Shown in pieces: positions 6,573-13,901 of a DNA stretch of 63,672 nucleotides. Position numbers and translations under genes: made by a program. The notes beneath the pieces are model-generated. The model was not told where the DNA came from, made no database searches, and was given only the letters and a program-made list of their open reading frames with translations. The stretch comes from Candidatus Desulfaltia sp. (GTDB lineage Bacteria; Desulfobacterota; Desulfobacteria; Desulfobacterales; ETH-SRB1). How positions within the stretch are numbered: the first letter of the stretch is position 1; every line of letters begins with the position of its first letter. Where the stretch lies: the NCBI GenBank assembly GCA_030656555.1, contig JAUSPN010000054.1:1-63672 (forward strand), read 5' to 3'.

Positions 6573-6596
6573 AATGAGCTCGCTTTTGCGGCTCAA
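6573..6596 (+). repeat. dispersed core repeat overlapping the hypF stop
   Basis: About 22 of 24 bases match 6127-6150. Its right end (gctcaaa) contains, on the minus strand, the TGA stop codon of hypF, and it is preceded by GCAGCGGGG, half of the usual hairpin. Confidence 0.65.
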
Positions 6597-8872
6597 ACGC
6601 TACAGGCCGCTGCCGCAATCATTGCCTGACCAAGAGAAATTCCGCCGTCATTAGTTGGGACAAGGCTGTGTGTTATAACTTGAAAATCTCTTTGCTTAAG
6701 CTCTTTTATTAAACCTGATAAAATTATCGTGTTCTGGAATACCCCGCCGCTTAACGCAACACGATTTAAACCGTTTTCCTTTCTTATGACTTCACACAGT
6801 TCTGAAAACAGCGCAATAATGGTATTATGGAATTTGCCGCTTATTGTTGAAGGGCTTACTCCCATTTTCATGTCATTGACTACGCCGGATATTATGGGCT
6901 GAAGAAAAATCCTGTGAGTTTCCCCGGATGTCCATTCAAAGTTATAGACACCTTTTGTCTTTTCATCAGACATCATCTCCAGCTCCATGGCAGCCTGGCC
7001 TTCAAAAACCACGGTGTTTCTGATACCGATAATTGCAGCTATGCCGTCAAAAAAACGCCCAAGGCTTGAAGTTAGGGGAGAATTTACCTTTTTTGAAATC
7101 ATCCCAACAATAAATTTTACCTTGCTGTCATCAATTTGCTCAAACAAAGGAAGATTGTGACCGGCAAAATCTTTTCCAAAAGCATCGCAGAGATAACTTA
7201 CAGCCATACGCCACGGCTGCTTTATTGCCGCCGCCCCTCCGGGCATCGGAACATATGACAGGTGTGCCGCGCGCTTAAATTCGCTGTCTTCAACAATGAG
7301 TATTTCACCTCCCCATATACTGCCGTCGGTTCCATAACCTGTGCCGTCAAAGGAAAGCCCTATTACAGGGCCATCCAGACGGTTTTCCGCCATGCAACTG
7401 ACTATATGCGCGTGGTGATGTTGAACAGGAACCTTTTTAACATCCTCCTGTTCAAGTGCATATCTTGTGCTCAAATAATCAGGATGAAGATCATAGGCAA
7501 TAATTTGGGGATTAATATCAAGTATCTGTTTCATGTGATTAATGGTTAATTGAAAGAACTCGTATGTTGCCTGATTCTCAAGATCCCCGATATGCTGGCT
7601 TATAAAGGCATTGTTTTCTTTTGTAAGGCAGACAGTGCTTTTCAACTCTCCACCGCAGGCAAGTATCTGGCCGACTTTTTTATTTAAAAAAACAGGAACA
7701 GGAATATATCCCCTTGATCGACGCATAAACCTGGTCTGGCCGGCCGTATGTTTTACTATTGAATCGTCGCTTCGCAGGTATATGTCCCTGTTGTGTATGA
7801 GAAAATAATCCGCAATTTCTGAAAGCCGCTTAAAAGCATCTTCGTTGTCAATGCAAATCGGCTCTTCGCTTATATTTCCGCTGGTCATAACCAGAGCAAT
7901 AAAATCGTGGCTTAATAAAAGGTAATGAAGAGGTGTATAAGGAAGCATCGCTCCAAAATATCTGTTTCGCGGTGAAACCTCCTTTGAGAGAGGATTGGGC
8001 TTTTTCTTTTTCAATATAACAATGGGGCGATGGAACGACTTCAGAAGATCTTCCTCTTCAGGCTGCACATGTGCATATTTGCGGATATGTTCAATATCGC
8101 AAGACATTATTGCGAGCGGCTTTTCTTCGCGATGTTTTCTGCTTCTGAGCGTGCGGACGGCATCATTGTTTGCGGCATCCACCGCGAGATGAAATCCTCC
8201 CAGGCCTTTTATCGCAACAATATAACCCTGCTTTAAAAGCTGTGCGGTTTTCTTAATCGGATTTTGAGAAACTATTTTTTTTCCTTTATTATCAAAAAGA
8301 TCAATATGAGGTCCGCACTTTTCACAGGCATTTGGCTGCGCATGAAACCTTCTGTTGCCTGGATCGTCATATTCAGCCTGGCACATTTTGCACATTTTAA
8401 AATGTTTCATTGAGGTTTTGGGACGATCATAGGGGATATCTGAAATAATTGTATATCTGGGGCCGCAGTTTGTGCAGTTTATGAATGGATAGTGAAAGCG
8501 ACGATCGTCCGGATCGAACAGCTCTGTGAGGCAGTCGTAGCAAATAGACACATCAGGAGAAATAAGGGTTGAGCATGCGGACTGGCCAATGCTTTGCGCA
8601 ATGGAAAATTCTTTGAAACCTTTAACAGGTTCAAGATCAATCGAAATGTCTGTGATGTGAGATAAAGGCGGGTTTTTTTCAGTAAGATCGCTGCAAAACG
8701 ATTCAATATTATCTTTAGTGCCTTCTATATGTATAACCACACCAGACGAGGTGTTTGCAACACTGCCTTTTATTTCATATTTGCTTGCGAGCTGATAAAC
8801 AAATGGTCGGAACCCAACTCCCTGAACTATTCCGTTAATATTAAGTATTTTAGCAACATAATCGCGTGTCAT
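6593..8872 (-). CDS. hypF: carbamoyltransferase HypF (759 aa)
   Basis: HypF makes the carbamoyl-adenylate and passes it to HypE, the first step in building the cyanide ligands of the [NiFe] active-site iron; it acts in the cytoplasm. All domains are present in order: acylphosphatase (residues 1-92, with QGVGFRPFVYQ), two zinc-finger pairs (CYDC..CTNC and CKMC..CEKC, about 112-190), the YrdC-like domain (about 200-385, TSGNISEEPI), and the Kae1/TobZ-like carbamoyltransferase domain (about 390-759, with QHHHAHI, LSFDGTGYG and LSGGVFQN). Length is normal. Downstream of hypC by 38 bases in the hydrogenase operon. HypA, B, D and E must be encoded elsewhere. Confidence 0.97.
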   Translation of the reverse strand: MTRDYVAKILNINGIVQGVGFRPFVYQLASKYEIKGSVANTSSGVVIHIEGTKDNIESFCSDLTEKNPPLSHITDISIDLEPVKGFKEFSIAQSIGQSACSTLISPDVSICYDCLTELFDPDDRRFHYPFINCTNCGPRYTIISDIPYDRPKTSMKHFKMCKMCQAEYDDPGNRRFHAQPNACEKCGPHIDLFDNKGKKIVSQNPIKKTAQLLKQGYIVAIKGLGGFHLAVDAANNDAVRTLRSRKHREEKPLAIMSCDIEHIRKYAHVQPEEEDLLKSFHRPIVILKKKKPNPLSKEVSPRNRYFGAMLPYTPLHYLLLSHDFIALVMTSGNISEEPICIDNEDAFKRLSEIADYFLIHNRDIYLRSDDSIVKHTAGQTRFMRRSRGYIPVPVFLNKKVGQILACGGELKSTVCLTKENNAFISQHIGDLENQATYEFFQLTINHMKQILDINPQIIAYDLHPDYLSTRYALEQEDVKKVPVQHHHAHIVSCMAENRLDGPVIGLSFDGTGYGTDGSIWGGEILIVEDSEFKRAAHLSYVPMPGGAAAIKQPWRMAVSYLCDAFGKDFAGHNLPLFEQIDDSKVKFIVGMISKKVNSPLTSSLGRFFDGIAAIIGIRNTVVFEGQAAMELEMMSDEKTKGVYNFEWTSGETHRIFLQPIISGVVNDMKMGVSPSTISGKFHNTIIALFSELCEVIRKENGLNRVALSGGVFQNTIILSGLIKELKQRDFQVITHSLVPTNDGGISLGQAMIAAAACSV

Positions 8873-8910: not shown

Positions 8911-9150
8911 TTATGCCTCATCGTTTGCTTTATCTACAAGAGCGGCTGCTTCTTTGAGCAGCAGCAAGGTTTCCATTGCAACAGATTCATCTATTTTATG
9001 CAAAGCAAAACCCGCATGAACGATGACATAATCTCCAATCTTTGCATCTTCGAGAAGCAGCAAACTGGCCTCCCTTGTAACGCCATCAACATCTATTGTG
9101 CCTATACTGTTTTCAATTTTTACTATTTTAGAAGGTATTGCAAGACACAT
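8911..9150 (-). CDS. hypC: hydrogenase assembly chaperone HypC (79 aa)
   Basis: HypC carries the Fe(CN)2CO unit with HypD and delivers it to the large-subunit precursor. The sequence begins MCLAIPSKIV, with the essential Cys2 and the conserved CxAIP start, followed by a beta-barrel of the HypC/HupF family (DVDGVTREASL, GDYVIVHAGFAL) and an acidic helix. Length is typical. It starts one base after the protease gene ends, so translation is likely coupled, and it precedes hypF. Confidence 0.96.
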   Translation of the reverse strand: MCLAIPSKIVKIENSIGTIDVDGVTREASLLLLEDAKIGDYVIVHAGFALHKIDESVAMETLLLLKEAAALVDKANDEA

Positions 9151-9660
9151 TCAATTGCTCCTTTTTTGATAGGAAACCTTCAGACGATCAAGTTCAGCCA
9201 GAACCATGTTTATTACAGGATCTATTTTTGTCTGTATTACCGGCGTCAGGTCAATACTAAGCGTATCAATATCTTCAGGCTCTACTCCGACTATTACTGT
9301 TTCAGGCACTTTGTCAAGGGCCTGGCATAAAGTCAGCGCTTCAATAAAGTCGATTTGATGGAGAGAATTTTTTGCCCTGATGCGCTCAGGTATTGCATCA
9401 CCTTCTAAATGGTATAGGGAGCCCGCTGCTTTTTTATTTCTGATTACATCAACAACAATAAGCTGGTCAGCTTCAGAAATTACCCCCAGAAGGTTTATCC
9501 CAAGTACTCCGCCATCCACAATCGAAACATTATCAGGAAACTCATAAAGCTCCTGCAACTTTTCTATAACACGTATGCCGAATCCTTCATCAGAAAAAAG
9601 TAAGCAGCCGACGCCCAAGACCATAATATGTTGTGAGTTCTTTTTTGTTATCTTTTCCAC
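9151..9660 (-). CDS. hydrogenase maturation endopeptidase, HyaD/HycI family (169 aa)
   Basis: This protease removes the C-terminal tail of the large subunit after nickel insertion. Family signatures are present: VLGVGCLLFSDEGFG near the start with the metal-sensing acidic residue, VVDVI (about residue 80) and SLHQIDF (about residue 110) with the conserved His. The likely target is the large subunit upstream, which ends in 15 residues after the motif His. The start codon is GTG at 9660 with AGGA about nine bases upstream. It is separated from the large-subunit gene by a 160-base gap with a strong hairpin, and abuts hypC. Confidence 0.93.
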   Translation of the reverse strand: MEKITKKNSQHIMVLGVGCLLFSDEGFGIRVIEKLQELYEFPDNVSIVDGGVLGINLLGVISEADQLIVVDVIRNKKAAGSLYHLEGDAIPERIRAKNSLHQIDFIEALTLCQALDKVPETVIVGVEPEDIDTLSIDLTPVIQTKIDPVINMVLAELDRLKVSYQKRSN

Positions 9661-9763
9661 AAGTTATTTATCCTGTTAAGTTACAAAACAGCTTCTATGT
9701 AATTATAGCAAAATCGGTAAGTAATCAAAAGGGAAGTCTCAATAAGAGGCGGGTGTGCGTTAA

Positions 9764-9801
9764 CCTTTCAGGGCCTCGCTTGAATGCAAGGCCCTGAAAG
9801 G
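9764..9801. other. strong intra-operon hairpin after large-subunit gene
   Basis: A perfect 13-bp stem CCTTTCAGGGCCT/AGGCCCTGAAAGG with a 12-base loop, 23 bases beyond the large-subunit stop. There is no T run on the minus strand, so it is more likely an mRNA-stabilising or processing element than a complete terminator. It would favour structural-subunit mRNA over the maturation genes. Confidence 0.6.
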
Positions 9802-9823
9802 GAAATAGTAAAATTATTAGCGC

Positions 9824-11473
9824 TTATGTCGCCCTAATTTTGTAGACCTGGTTGGAATCAGGATCAATTATATGAACACCGCAGGCTACACATGGATCAA
9901 AGGAATGAACGGTTCGCAAGACTTCAATTGGACGCTTTGGATCCGCAACCGGCGTCCCGATAAGAGCCTCTTCCACCGGTCCAAGCTTGCCTTTTTCACA
10001 CCTTGGCCCGAAATTCCAGGTTGAAGGCACAACATACTGGTAATTTTTAATCTTCTTGTTTTCGATTTCAATCCAGTGCCCTAAAGATCCTCTGGCAACA
10101 TCATTTAATCCCACGCCCATAGCCTTGTCAGGCATTTCCCATGGCTGATATGTCTTAGTGTTACCGTCTTTAATATTCTTAACCAGCTCCATAACCCATC
10201 CTTGCATGGCATTGCCGATGGCAACTGTCTCAAGGCCCCTGGCCGCTGTTCTGCCAAGAGTAGAAAATAGAGCAGTAATCGGAACGCCGAGGTCCTTAAG
10301 AGTTTTGTCAACCAATGGTTTTATATCTTTATGCCCTTTAGCATAGGCTACAAGCACTCTTGTCAAAGGACCAACCTCGCATGGCTCACCATCATAGCGA
10401 GGCGCTTTGAACCATGAATATTTACCGCCATCCGGTTTGTATTTTGGATCTTCCTGAAGCGGTTTTGTTTCACCTTTATAAGGATGTTTTGGGCTGCCTT
10501 TCTCATACCATGCACGGGCAACATGTTCCGTAACCTTTTCCTGCTCTGCCATTTTAATACCGGCAAGATCACGTTTCATTATCACACCTCTTGGCATGTA
10601 CAGGCTTTCAGGCTCTTTATCGCTCATGGGAAGGTCTCCCCATGCAAGGAAATTTGTCGTTCCGCCAATCGCTCCCCAGTCCTTGTAAAACGAAGCAACA
10701 GCCATCAGGTCAGGAATATATACATTATTAATAAAATCCTGCGTTTCCTTTGTCAGATACAAAAATTCAGCTATACGGTCAGGAGTAAGATCCTTTACCG
10801 ATGTTATTCCTCCGACAACCAGCGACTGCAGATGCGGATTCTTTCCTCCAAATATGGCATGCATTCTGGCTGCCTTGGCCTGAAGGCGGAGGGCTTCAAT
10901 ATAATGCGCTGAAGCCATCAGGTTTGCCTCGGGTGGAAGTTTGTATGCAGGATGCCCCCAGTATGCATTATTCAAGGGGCCAAGCTGGCCGCTTTCAACA
11001 AAGGTTTTAAGCCGTTGCTGAACATCCTTGTAATATGTTGAGCCGCCCCAGGGAGCATTGCTTACATTCTCGGAAAGAGTTGCTGTTTTCTTGGGATCGG
11101 CAGATAGTGCGCTTACAATATCAACCCAGTCCAGCGCGTGTAGATGATAGAAATGGACAATGTGGTCATGCTGGAACTGAGCGCCGTGAAGAAGGTTTCT
11201 CATTATACGCGCAGTATCCGGTATCTTAACGCCAACTGCATTTTCGACTGCCCTCACCGAGGACAGAGCATGTGTATAAGTTCAGACGCCGCAGGAGCGC
11301 TGAACAAAATGCTGCGCATCCCTTGGATCACGTCCCTGAAGAATAAGTTCAATGCCTCTGAACATCTGGCCTGAGCTCCAGGCATTTACTACTTTGCCTC
11401 CTGCCACCTCTACTTCAATTCGCAGATGGCCCTCTATTCTGGTAATCGGATCTATCGTTATTCTTTTACCCAT
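9824..11473 (-). CDS. hynA: [NiFe] hydrogenase large subunit with predicted selenocysteine (549 aa)
   Basis: Catalytic subunit of a periplasmic uptake-type (group 1) hydrogenase, H2 = 2H+ + 2e-. The frame is open from ATG 11473 to the stop at 9824 except for TGA at 11282-11284, residue 64. Around it the protein reads [16 protein letters not shown], so TGA replaces the second Cys of the RxCGxC motif (residues 59-64) that binds the Ni-Fe site. Everything else is intact: RIEGH near the start, [11 protein letters not shown], and the C-terminal DPCVACGVH (526-534) with both cysteines, followed by a 15-residue tail for protease removal. A SECIS-like hairpin follows the TGA. I therefore read the codon as selenocysteine. 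The alternative is a nonsense mutation or base-call error, which the hairpin and lack of other decay argue against. It is co-transcribed after the small subunit. Confidence 0.85.
11242..11260 (-). promoter_or_regulatory. predicted SECIS element in hynA mRNA
   Basis: On the minus strand CTGTCCTC and GAGGGCAG form eight consecutive pairs (one G-U) around a three-base loop GGT. The stem starts 15 bases and the loop 23 bases after the TGA, inside the roughly 16-37 base window of bacterial SECIS elements, and the loop starts with the expected G. Within coding sequence, as in bacterial selenoprotein genes, where SelB binds the loop to bring in Sec-tRNA. Confidence 0.75.
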
Positions 11474-11523
11474 ATTATCTCCTCCCTTTTTTTCTTAAAA
11501 AGGATTGTTATTTGTTTTTCCGG

Positions 11524-12465
11524 CTACATTTCCTCATAAAACGGGCTCATCTTGTCCCAGAAATCAGGTTCGCTGCATCCAATGCAGGGATGTCCTGCCT
11601 GAACAGGCCAGCTTGTACCGTCATTGAACTTTACAGTCGGGCAATTGTTGAAGGTTTCCGGACCCTTGCAACCTACTTTGTAAAGGCAATAACCCTTGGC
11701 TGCCTCTTGTGAACCAAACTCGGTAACAAATTCACCATTTTCAAAATGTGATCTTCTTTGGCATTGATCATGAATCGTCTTGCCATATGCAAAAAGCGGT
11801 CTGCCAAGATCGTCAAGAGCCGGCAGTTTGCCGAGAAGGAGATAATTAACCACTGTACCGACAAGATTAATCGGATTTGGAGGGCATCCCGGAATATTCA
11901 GTGTCTTAATGCCAAGAGCATCTCCAACACCTTTATATCCGCCTGGATTAGGCTTTGCCGCCTGGATACCGCCATATGCGGAACATGTACCCATGCAGAT
12001 TACTGCAGCGGCTTTAGAGCAGACATCCTTTGCGATATCAAGAAATGTTCTCCCTGCGATCTTTCCATAACCGCCGTTGTACTTTGTGCCAACCGCTCCC
12101 TCTACAACACAGATAAACTTGCCGTTGTATTTTTTTACTGCATTGTGGAGATTCTCTTCTGCCTGATGACCTGCTGCAGCCATTATGGTTTCATGATATT
12201 CTACTGAGAGAACTTCCAGAAGCAGCTGATCGATCCAGGGATACATGGACCTTAAAAGCGCTTCGGAACATCCGGTACATTCAGCAAAATGAAGCCAGAT
12301 TACGGGCGGGCGCTGTGCAGGAGCTGCGAACACCTCTGCTACCTTTGGAACAAACGATGATGAAAGCCCCATGGTAGCTGTTAGAAAGGTACAGTACTTC
12401 ATAAAGTCCCTTCTTGAGACCCCTTTCTTCTCCAGCCTTTTATAAAATTCTTTTTCCTTTTCCAT
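11524..12465 (-). CDS. hynB: [NiFe] hydrogenase small subunit, Tat-exported (313 aa)
   Basis: Electron-transfer subunit with three Fe-S clusters. A Tat signal is present (SRRDFMK at residues 17-23, hydrophobic segment, AAPA), so the folded dimer is sent to the periplasm. Proximal-cluster ligands: ECTGCSE, GTCSAYGG and PGCPPNP. Distal: IHDQC, GYC and VGC. Medial: NNCP, then SWPVQAGHPCIGC, where the proline is the residue found with a [3Fe-4S] medial cluster; [NiFeSe] enzymes usually have Cys there. I chose ATG 12465 with AGGAGG five bases upstream; a GTG at 12471 overlaps that ribosome site. There is no C-terminal membrane anchor, so a soluble periplasmic dimer passing electrons to cytochrome c3 is likely (inference). 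First gene of the operon. Confidence 0.95.
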   Translation of the reverse strand: MEKEKEFYKRLEKKGVSRRDFMKYCTFLTATMGLSSSFVPKVAEVFAAPAQRPPVIWLHFAECTGCSEALLRSMYPWIDQLLLEVLSVEYHETIMAAAGHQAEENLHNAVKKYNGKFICVVEGAVGTKYNGGYGKIAGRTFLDIAKDVCSKAAAVICMGTCSAYGGIQAAKPNPGGYKGVGDALGIKTLNIPGCPPNPINLVGTVVNYLLLGKLPALDDLGRPLFAYGKTIHDQCQRRSHFENGEFVTEFGSQEAAKGYCLYKVGCKGPETFNNCPTVKFNDGTSWPVQAGHPCIGCSEPDFWDKMSPFYEEM

Positions 12466-12535
12466 TGGCACCTCCTGATGCTGTTATAAGGTTACAACAA
12501 ATACTGTCAATCAAACAAGTTGATAATACGAGATG

Positions 12536-12634
12536 TTTGAAAAATGCTCAATTTTGTTCGAGTTCAAGTAAGGCGAAAATATGAGCGCTGATGGTTAGCG
12601 CTAAATTGGATAACAAAAGGGAGCGTTTTTCAAA
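12536..12634. repeat. palindromic element with GAAAAATGCTC ends
   Basis: TTTGAAAAATGCTC (12536-12549) is the inverted match of GAGCGTTTTTCAAA (12621-12634) apart from one wobble pair, and an inner AGCGCT...AGCGCT palindrome sits at 12583-12601. A longer relative lies at 24101-24289. It lies between the hydrogenase operon promoter region and oadB and contains no gene. Confidence 0.7.
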
Positions 12635-12770
12635 GGTTGCAAAGGTCTCAATACGTAAATCCCCATAGAGACCTGCGGTATTAAGAAAGAACTGAAGTAA
12701 TTTAATTTATTGAATAAAAACTTTCTAACTCGACCCGTAACATAAGTCAAGAAAAATAATCTGTTATTTT

Positions 12771-13901
12771 TCAGCCACCTAAAAAGCTCCATAAAATTGC
12801 CGCCGCAATTGCTGAGCCAATAACACCTGATATGTTTGGAGCCATGGCATGCATCAAAAGAAAATTTGTGGGGTCTTCTTTCTGGCCTACTATCTGAACC
12901 ACGCGGGCGGAATTAGGAACAGCCGATACGCCTGCGGCGCCTATAAGCGGGTTTATCTTTTGACGCAGGAAAAGGTTCATGAATTTTGCAAAGATAACGC
13001 CCGATGCCGTTGCGACGGCAAAGGCTGAAGCGCCAAGAATAAAAATTCCCATGGACTTACCGGTCAAAAAAATATCGCCCTGTGTGCTCGCTCCAACAGC
13101 CAGGCCCAGCAATATGGTTACTGTATCAATAATAGAAGAACGGGCTGCTCTGGCAAGACGTTCTGCTACTATGCTTTCCTTTAAAAGATTCCCGAAAAAG
13201 AGCATACCGAGAAGAGGAAGTGCGCCCGGAGCTATAAAGCAGCAGAGCAAAAATCCAACTATGGGAAAAATCAGCTTTTCTCTCTTTGAAACCTCACGAG
13301 GCTCTTCCATTCTTATAAGCCGTTCTTTGCGTGAGGTAAGCAACCTCATAATGGGTGGTTGAATTACAGGAACCAGCGCCATGTATGAATAAGCTGCGAT
13401 TGCAATAGGGCCTATCAGCCGCGGAGCAAGCACGGCTGTAAGAAAAATAGCCGTAGGTCCGTCAGCCCCTCCGATAATGCCTATTGATGCAGCCTCATTC
13501 GGAGCAAAGCCGAGTGCAAGAGCCCCTAAAAAAGTTGCAAAAATTCCTATCTGGGCGGCAGCTCCCAAAAGCATCAAGGATGGACGCGCAAGCATTGCTG
13601 AAAAATCAGTAAGGGCTCCTACGCCCAAGAAGATTAATGGCGGATAAATATCATGCATAACGCCGTAATACATGTAATTCAAAAAACTGCCCTTTTCATA
13701 AATTCCGAGTCCAAAATCCCTGATCACAGGAATATTACCCATCAAAATGCCAAAACCGATCGGTATCAGAAGAAACGGTTCATACTTTTTTGCTATCCCC
13801 AAATAAATAAGCACAATGCCCACCAGAATCATTATTATGTTCTGATAACCTGCAAGCGCAAAACCTGTATTGGACAAAAATTCTATTAACAGATCTACCA
13901 T
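12771..13901 (-). CDS. oadB: sodium-pumping decarboxylase beta subunit (OadB/GcdB/MmdB family, 376 aa)
   Basis: Integral membrane subunit that couples decarboxylation of carboxybiotin to Na+ export. It is very hydrophobic with about nine to eleven membrane segments. Family motifs visible: the GGADGPTAIFLT segment (residues about 145-157) around the conserved Asp of the Na+ site, YSYMALVPVIQPPIMR, and SAVPNSARVVQ (about 325-335) with the conserved Asn/Ser. Length is slightly short but within the family range. Preceded by an OadG-like gene 27 bases upstream. No alpha subunit (carboxyltransferase) or biotin carrier is adjacent, so the substrate (oxaloacetate, methylmalonyl-CoA or glutaconyl-CoA) cannot be told. 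Confidence 0.93.
   Translation of the reverse strand: MVDLLIEFLSNTGFALAGYQNIIMILVGIVLIYLGIAKKYEPFLLIPIGFGILMGNIPVIRDFGLGIYEKGSFLNYMYYGVMHDIYPPLIFLGVGALTDFSAMLARPSLMLLGAAAQIGIFATFLGALALGFAPNEAASIGIIGGADGPTAIFLTAVLAPRLIGPIAIAAYSYMALVPVIQPPIMRLLTSRKERLIRMEEPREVSKREKLIFPIVGFLLCCFIAPGALPLLGMLFFGNLLKESIVAERLARAARSSIIDTVTILLGLAVGASTQGDIFLTGKSMGIFILGASAFAVATASGVIFAKFMNLFLRQKINPLIGAAGVSAVPNSARVVQIVGQKEDPTNFLLMHAMAPNISGVIGSAIAAAILWSFLGG

Follow-up and report, generated by a model that had tools for sequence, protein, structure and literature searches.

In Candidatus Desulfaltia sp., codon 64 of the gene for a periplasmic group-1 [NiFe] hydrogenase large subunit is a UGA that is very probably translated as selenocysteine (Sec), and this residue is predicted to be a ligand bridging nickel and iron. 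The gene lies in a stretch of 63,672 nucleotides (contig JAUSPN010000054.1 of assembly GCA_030656555.1), hereafter the window. Homologues in other genomes suggest that such enzymes probably make up a natural class, widespread in Desulfobacterota, in which selenium would bridge Ni and Fe. The class would include a subclass with Sec as both N-terminal ligands, that is, with two selenolates, and would comprise two well separated group-1 lineages, apart from the [NiFeSe] hydrogenases with C-terminal Sec.

Codon 64 reads TCA on the plus strand and TGA on the minus strand, as seen directly in the sequence. When it is read through, the gene yields 549 residues with U64 as the sole in-frame stop, in the context Q-R-S-C-G-V-U-T-Y-T-H-A. 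An earlier note, made from the letters of the window, had placed a single TGA at residue 64, on the second Cys of RxCGxC, with 485 codons following it in the large-subunit gene, and had read a C-terminal motif D-P-C-V-A-C-G-V-H that retains both cysteines; the read-through translation agrees on every one of these points. The family profile PF00374 spans the TGA over the full family length (residues 1-508, 722.5 bits), and both ligand motifs of group-1 [NiFe] large subunits are present, one of the four Cys codons being UGA. With Cys substituted for U, the protein narrowly misses the curated cut-off of NF033181 (582 vs 600 bits), and group-1 membership has therefore been assigned from Pfam and solved structures. 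The source genome is a 2.73-Mb draft of 107 contigs, rated 100% complete, and at an E-value of 0.001 this gene is its sole PF00374 match. Downstream of the UGA, dN/dS is 0.127-0.135 against three relatives (L073-L075), in a comparison that left out L006, owing to an indel misalignment, and L077, in which synonymous sites are saturated. Selection persists on the frame 3′ of the TGA. The coordinates of this gene, its key codons and its neighbors are collected in Table 1.

Table 1. Features of the hydrogenase locus in the window
Feature	Position	Strand	Basis and remarks
[NiFe] hydrogenase large subunit gene	9824..11473	-	549 aa with TGA codon 64 read through; PF00374, 1h2a match
In-frame TGA, codon 64, predicted Sec at second Cys of R-x-C-G-x-C	11282..11284	-	Read-through translation, homologue alignment, 1h2a position 84
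Codon 61, first N-terminal Cys ligand (TGC)	11291..11293	-	TGA in 9/80 named homologues (best 80 of 289)
Codon 528, first C-terminal Cys ligand, Cys here; Sec position of known [NiFeSe] HysA	9890..9892	-	Translation, 1h2a alignment
Codon 531, second C-terminal Cys ligand; aligns to 1h2a position 549	9881..9883	-	Translation, 1h2a alignment
SECIS-like hairpin, 8-bp stem, apical loop GGU	11248..11266	-	15 nt from UGA to stem, 23 nt from UGA to loop; comparative analysis
Hydrogenase small subunit, twin-arginine-like leader (RRDFMK)	11524..12471	-	PF14720, PF01058; leader read from sequence
Hydrogenase maturation protease, HycI family	9151..9660	-	PF01750, 110 bits
Probable HypC (MCLAIPSKI...)	8911..9150	-	Identified by eye
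HypF-type carbamoyltransferase (maturation)	6593..8872	-	PF22521, PF17788, PF07503, PF01300, PF00708

The operon runs in the order small subunit, large subunit, HycI-type protease, probable HypC and HypF, and the large subunit thus shares it with both a partner small subunit and a maturation protease, as group-1 enzymes do. In-frame stops are absent from the small-subunit gene at 77 of the 78 loci with a match; the lone exception, at L150, stands beside a large subunit of the Cys type. At 17 sites in the window, an in-frame TGA has 40 and 60 open codons on its two sides; the hydrogenase and the HycI/HypC junction account for one each. The latter (8911-9663, minus strand) resembles a recoding site and was rejected as an ordinary junction: its TGA, which bears on any genome-wide reassignment of UGA, is the terminator of the adjoining HycI gene and is followed by the in-frame ATG of probable HypC.

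Which of the four metal ligands does codon 64 specify? The closest solved relative is 1h2a (712.5 bits, residues 5-547), which we take to be the D. vulgaris Miyazaki hydrogenase. Query residue 5 aligns with its position 25, and the alignment is ungapped from there to residue 64, which corresponds to position 84; the counterparts of residues 528 and 531 are positions 546 and 549. In 1h2a, Cys84 and Cys549 presumably bridge Ni and Fe, and those at 81 and 546 are terminal. Since residue 64 aligns with position 84, one of the bridging ligands, Sec64 is predicted to bridge the two metals, so that the earlier inference of a bridging role holds by homology. A set of two bridging and two terminal Cys is general among [NiFe] hydrogenases (PMC9961374, in part).

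The recurrence of TGA at codon 64 is far above chance. Among the best 80 of 289 loci (the named loci), which were chosen by closeness to the UGA query and are thus biased to UGA and give no fair frequency, a single TGA occurs in 48 and TGA at both N-terminal ligand codons in nine, so that codon 64 is UGA in 57. The remaining 23 are Cys homologues aligning to the UGA, as is expected for a bacterial selenoprotein, with TGC in 16 and TGT in seven. Between the ligand motifs, none of these best 80 of 289 loci has another in-frame stop; L103 ends early, near the gene end. In a group made up of the window gene and its relatives (L002-L030), codon 64 is TGA in 15 of 29 and TGC or TGT in 14 of 29; this count omits L001, as it and L002 are a single gene, and L031, a TGT homologue at 48%, and the group shares organisms with the named loci. 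TGA at the second Cys of RxCGxC, which the earlier note had proposed to look for in large-subunit sets, is accordingly found in both sets. In an even draw of 389 genomes of the order, 138 had a homologue as close as E 1e-230 or better, in 139 rows in all. Counted by hand, 57 of these rows, from 56 genomes, have one in-frame TGA, counted irrespective of its position in the gene, one row has TAA and the rest have none. The UGA carriers include metagenome-assembled genomes (MAGs) named Candidatus Desulfaltia bathyphila, Desulfobacteraceae bacterium Eth-SRB1, Olavius-associated deltas and Desulfosarcina sp., and the Cys form is found in Desulfosarcina widdelii and D. cetonica. One MAG, MB3D_Bin_18 (G530), has two different copies of the UGA hydrogenase on separate contigs (L101 and L111).

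The nine loci with double UGA (L122, L125, L127, L130, L131, L133, L136, L147 and L152) encode R-x-U-G-V-U: two TGA codons nine bases apart are followed by one hairpin. These relatives appear to have a Ni site with two predicted Sec residues, one as the terminal and the other as the bridging N-terminal ligand.

A bacterial SECIS element is a hairpin with a small G-containing loop just 3′ of the UGA, and the hairpin after codon 64 has this form. Among the best 80 of 289 loci, a hairpin with a GGU or GGC loop lies 15 nt 3′ of the UGA in all 57 UGA genes. All eight stem pairs are intact in 45 of the 48 single-UGA and seven of the nine double-UGA genes, and seven of the eight pairs in the remainder; none of the 23 Cys genes in this set has all eight pairs, and one has seven. 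The GGT loop triplet by itself is also found in 10 of these 23 Cys genes (best 80 of 289). The constraint is evident at the level of codons as well. In the 57 UGA genes of the same best 80 of 289, codons +7 to +10 (TCC TCG GTG AGG) do not vary synonymously at all where the majority residue is encoded, which is the case in 52 of 57 at +7 and +9 and in 57 of 57 at +8 and +10; codon +11 has 0.22 bits. The same hairpin codons have 1.7-2.3 bits of synonymous variation in the 23 Cys genes (best 80 of 289). Of 447 five-codon windows along the gene, the one covering residues 71-75 has the smallest synonymous entropy in the UGA genes (0.022, the mean being 0.81); in the Cys genes it does not stand out, at index 302 of 446 (counted from 0, lowest first). 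Covariation in the stem is thin, with double changes at two of the eight pairs, in three cells, and 99.1% of cells paired; it is weak because the hairpin is nearly invariant. The single-sequence fold energy of the window hairpin is not significant (z -1.07), and no Rfam SECIS match was found over the window at the gathering threshold or over 9500-12600 at E up to 10. In the main lineage, the hairpin is selected and tied to the UGA.

The codon is also UGA in a distinct family of the phylum, 52-54% identical, where three of the four genomes read show it (G296, G170 and G199), and one of these three UGA members is of the UGVU type (L189). The hairpin of this lineage (L189-L192) differs from that of the main lineage. 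It is also present in a relative with TGT (G226), and thus does not discriminate between UGA and Cys there; either a recent change from Sec to Cys took place in G226, or the hairpin has another cause. The presence of UGA64 in two lineages suggests more than one origin, as judged from the sequences, and an old shared origin, or transfer between the lineages, is possible. Regardless of direction, UGA and Cys have interchanged at least 11 times on the best tree of 82 proteins and at least nine times as forced by starred branches; the tree was made by a quick method in which the trait's own column was kept, with UGA as a gap. Raw counts at positions 67, 70, 280, 305 and 463 differ with the state of residue 64. 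After tree pairing, none of six associations of residues with Sec64 reached a median p < 0.05 (67V, 0.0625; 280D not included).

The source genome contains the machinery for Sec, for which the earlier note had suggested looking (selA, selB, selC and selD). Profile searches identified SelA (619.8 bits), SelB (380.2 bits), SelD (381 bits) and a tRNA-Sec (75.9 bits) with UCA anticodon and G73, which is the set expected of a genome encoding a bacterial selenoprotein. SelD itself has an in-frame TGA (S-G-U-A-S-K), and the hairpin in its gene has a GGA loop and a fold energy that is not significant (z -0.26). At an E-value of 0.001 the profiles of SelB, SelD and tRNA-Sec matched in all 14 control genomes; over the cut-offs, matches occurred in two of the 14 for SelB, two for SelD, five for tRNA-Sec and one for SelA. 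A tRNA scan covered 37 genomes, five of them of Cys types and 32 with a UGA hydrogenase. A canonical tRNA-Sec match of at least 70 bits was found in 25 of the 32, and G73 and UCA were seen by eye in 21 of 22 canonical loci printed, one not being located. Seven of the 32 lack a canonical match of 70 bits (G002, G018, G019, G023, G048, G059 and G061); G018, G019 and G048 are rated 92-97% complete, and G002 and G059 have a match to a second class of tRNA alone. SelB occurs as split pieces only in two of the first 15 UGA-hydrogenase genomes. Among the nine UGVU genomes, SelB is over the cut-off in eight, three of which have a second SelB, and one has none over the cut-off; one UGVU genome (G063) has, next to a 59-bit tRNA, a single SelB (317 bits). 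Taken with the constrained hairpin, the conservation of the codon and the second lineage, this machinery supports the earlier prediction of Sec at the second N-terminal Cys position, on evidence drawn from sequence. Out of reach for the earlier note were the double-UGA relatives, the hairpin, a second tRNA/SelB pair in the source genome and the engineered Sec variants of E. coli hydrogenases, the last two of which are taken up below.

Could the codon be read, or have arisen, in some other way? A sequencing or assembly error or a decaying pseudogene might be suspected in a draft of 107 contigs, and yet TGA stands at codon 64 in dozens of separately assembled genomes, one of which is a single contig (L086, record CP070746.1), the hairpin is conserved together with the UGA, and dN/dS is about 0.13 downstream of it. 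The conservation of the TGA and dN/dS rule this explanation out, and we give it practically no weight. A different possibility is that Sec insertion is inefficient or conditional, and that the UGA is a selenium-dependent switch on the level of the hydrogenase instead of serving active-site chemistry. The frequent interchange of UGA and Cys would fit such a locally adjustable trait. However, the substitution is limited to codons for metal ligands and reaches the neighboring ligand in nine of the named loci (best 80 of 289), which points to metal chemistry, and no further PF00374 gene was found in the source genome to substitute for this one. A switch of this kind is thus unlikely.

As the most serious rival, UGA64 might be decoded as cysteine by a tRNA-Cys with an opal anticodon (selC*) together with SelB*, in which case the enzyme would be an ordinary all-Cys [NiFe] hydrogenase. 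Mukai and colleagues reportedly proposed in 2017 that selC* tRNAs may be opal suppressors, possibly giving Cys at UGA. In Desulfobacterales, the selC*/selB* systems of delta-proteobacteria include Cys-type tRNAs that have A1:U72 and an opal anticodon and that SelB* is thought to recognize (PMC7609411, in part). Contig C31 of the source genome carries a second UCA tRNA (52.5 bits, A1:U72, U73) and, after it, a gene for a second SelB (303 bits), an arrangement matching the selC*/selB* layout in the portion of PMC7609411 consulted. The known selC*/selB*/cysS* system is thus partly present on C31; the two genes after selB* are, however, a double-cubane reductase (NF040772) and an activase (CoA_E_activ), not cysS*. 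Moreover, SelB* over the cut-off or a second tRNA is found in just four of the first 15 UGA-hydrogenase genomes (G000, G002, G007 and G032). Counted as matches of at least 50 bits in draft genomes, with U73 read in the genome of the window alone, a selC*-like match of 50-60 bits occurs in eight of the 32 UGA-hydrogenase genomes, or nine with the doubtful G058, and in none of the other 23-24; 18-19 of the 32 have a canonical tRNA-Sec and no selC*-like match. The pair is therefore not present wherever UGA needs reading, and the same hairpin is found in genomes with and without it. Decoding as Cys is very unlikely on these grounds, and insertion of Sec is the reading that we prefer.

The loci of these additional tRNAs have features of their own. 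On C31, the tRNA/SelB pair (C31:4034-6081, L153) adjoins a formate dehydrogenase alpha gene, which has no in-frame TGA in the stretch read; downstream of the pair, along with the reductase and the activase, is selD with its in-frame TGA at 12070-12996. In another genome (G007:C40:940029-944342), two selC*-like tRNA matches and two selB*-like matches are adjacent, one selB* being in two pieces, and from its sequence the doubled pair looks like a tandem duplication.

With Sec insertion, an outline of the process would be as follows: SerRS, SelA and SelD would make Sec-tRNA-Sec, and SelB, bound to the hairpin just 3′ of the UGA, would bring it to codon 64. In the mature enzyme, Ni would be held by three Cys and one bridging Sec, with one bridging thiolate replaced by a selenolate and the C-terminal ligands remaining Cys; in a subset of relatives, Sec is predicted at both N-terminal ligands, terminal and bridging. 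The conserved UGA, the selection on the hairpin and on the frame after it, and the machinery are observed in the sequences; the selenium in the protein, its bridging geometry and its benefit we infer. What would the benefit be? Our preferred guess is that the bridging ligand would be shielded from lasting oxidation, because the slow Ni-A state has been proposed to hold an oxygenated bridging Cys and selenolates are re-reduced more easily. Cys75 of the [NiFeSe] enzyme referred to next is presumably its first N-terminal ligand. The bridging Cys of Ni-A has been proposed to be S-oxygenated, and large-subunit Cys75 of a [NiFeSe] enzyme has been found oxidized (PMC7324405, in part). Sec at precisely one or both of these N-terminal positions would be consistent with protection through selenolates that are readily re-reduced. 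According to a contrary view, the Ni-A ligand is probably a water molecule (PMC10779653, in part). Sec64 may also affect oxygen tolerance or catalytic bias, as the earlier note had suggested, and an altered bias toward H2 production is possible; the bias effect reported for E. coli Hyd-2 concerns the terminal, Glu-adjacent Cys and not the bridging position of Sec64 (PMC11212049, in part).

If this is true, evolution has used a ligand position that chemists reached by engineering. The part played by the bridging ligand in oxidative inactivation and catalytic bias could be tested directly, which is feasible because closely related Cys and Sec forms coexist side by side. There is also a practical consequence: in dozens of genomes, a gene finder that treats UGA as a stop would cut the hydrogenase short or overlook it, and in the source genome the hydrogenase so affected is the sole [NiFe] hydrogenase found.

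How does this enzyme relate to known hydrogenases? With the standard periplasmic [NiFe] hydrogenases (D. vulgaris Miyazaki F and relatives), it has in common whole-length homology, the four ligand positions, the small subunit, the HycI protease and HypF, and it differs from them in having UGA in place of the codon for a bridging Cys, together with a hairpin. The [NiFeSe] hydrogenase HysA of Desulfovibrio and Desulfomicrobium is likewise group-1-like, and a UGA in its gene puts Sec in place of one of the Cys that bind Ni. In HysA, however, Sec is at the first C-terminal Cys, whereas the C-terminal pair of the UGA64 enzyme is Cys and Sec is predicted at the second N-terminal position. The UGA64 protein scores 415.7 bits against the HysA profile NF045518, whose cut-off is 780, and is nearer the standard [NiFe] enzyme 1h2a than HysA (best 343.4 bits). 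The earlier statement that known [NiFeSe] enzymes have Sec at the first C-terminal position finds a match in the same order, where one genome (G050, locus L158) has a HysA-type gene with S-F-D-P-U-L-G-C. The archaeal selenohydrogenases VhuU/VhuA and FrhA also have Sec in the alpha subunit, with the motif UxxC as against CxxU or UxxU here, and in a table of 119 families the FrhA and MvhA/VhuA/VhuU alpha subunits are given with UxxC alone (PMC13188914, in part). The natural Sec hydrogenases named in the sources consulted are of the UxxC type, in the C-terminal motif where the place is given (PMC4730141 and PMC13188914, both in part). No report of a natural hydrogenase with N-terminal (bridging) Sec or with two Sec was found in the literature searched or in the part of the 119-family table consulted (PMC13188914), and a mention in Mukai et al. 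2017 or Evans et al. 2021 is possible. The earlier note knew of no characterized enzyme of this type; that stands for natural enzymes within the literature searched and has to be qualified for artificial ones, as E. coli Hyd-1 and Hyd-2 have been engineered to carry Sec in place of every one of the four Cys that coordinate Ni (Evans et al. 2021, 2024; PMC11212049, in part). Those variants also include Sec at the ligand considered here, by artificial means, whereas the predicted Sec64 is natural, occurs in many genomes and is sometimes doubled.
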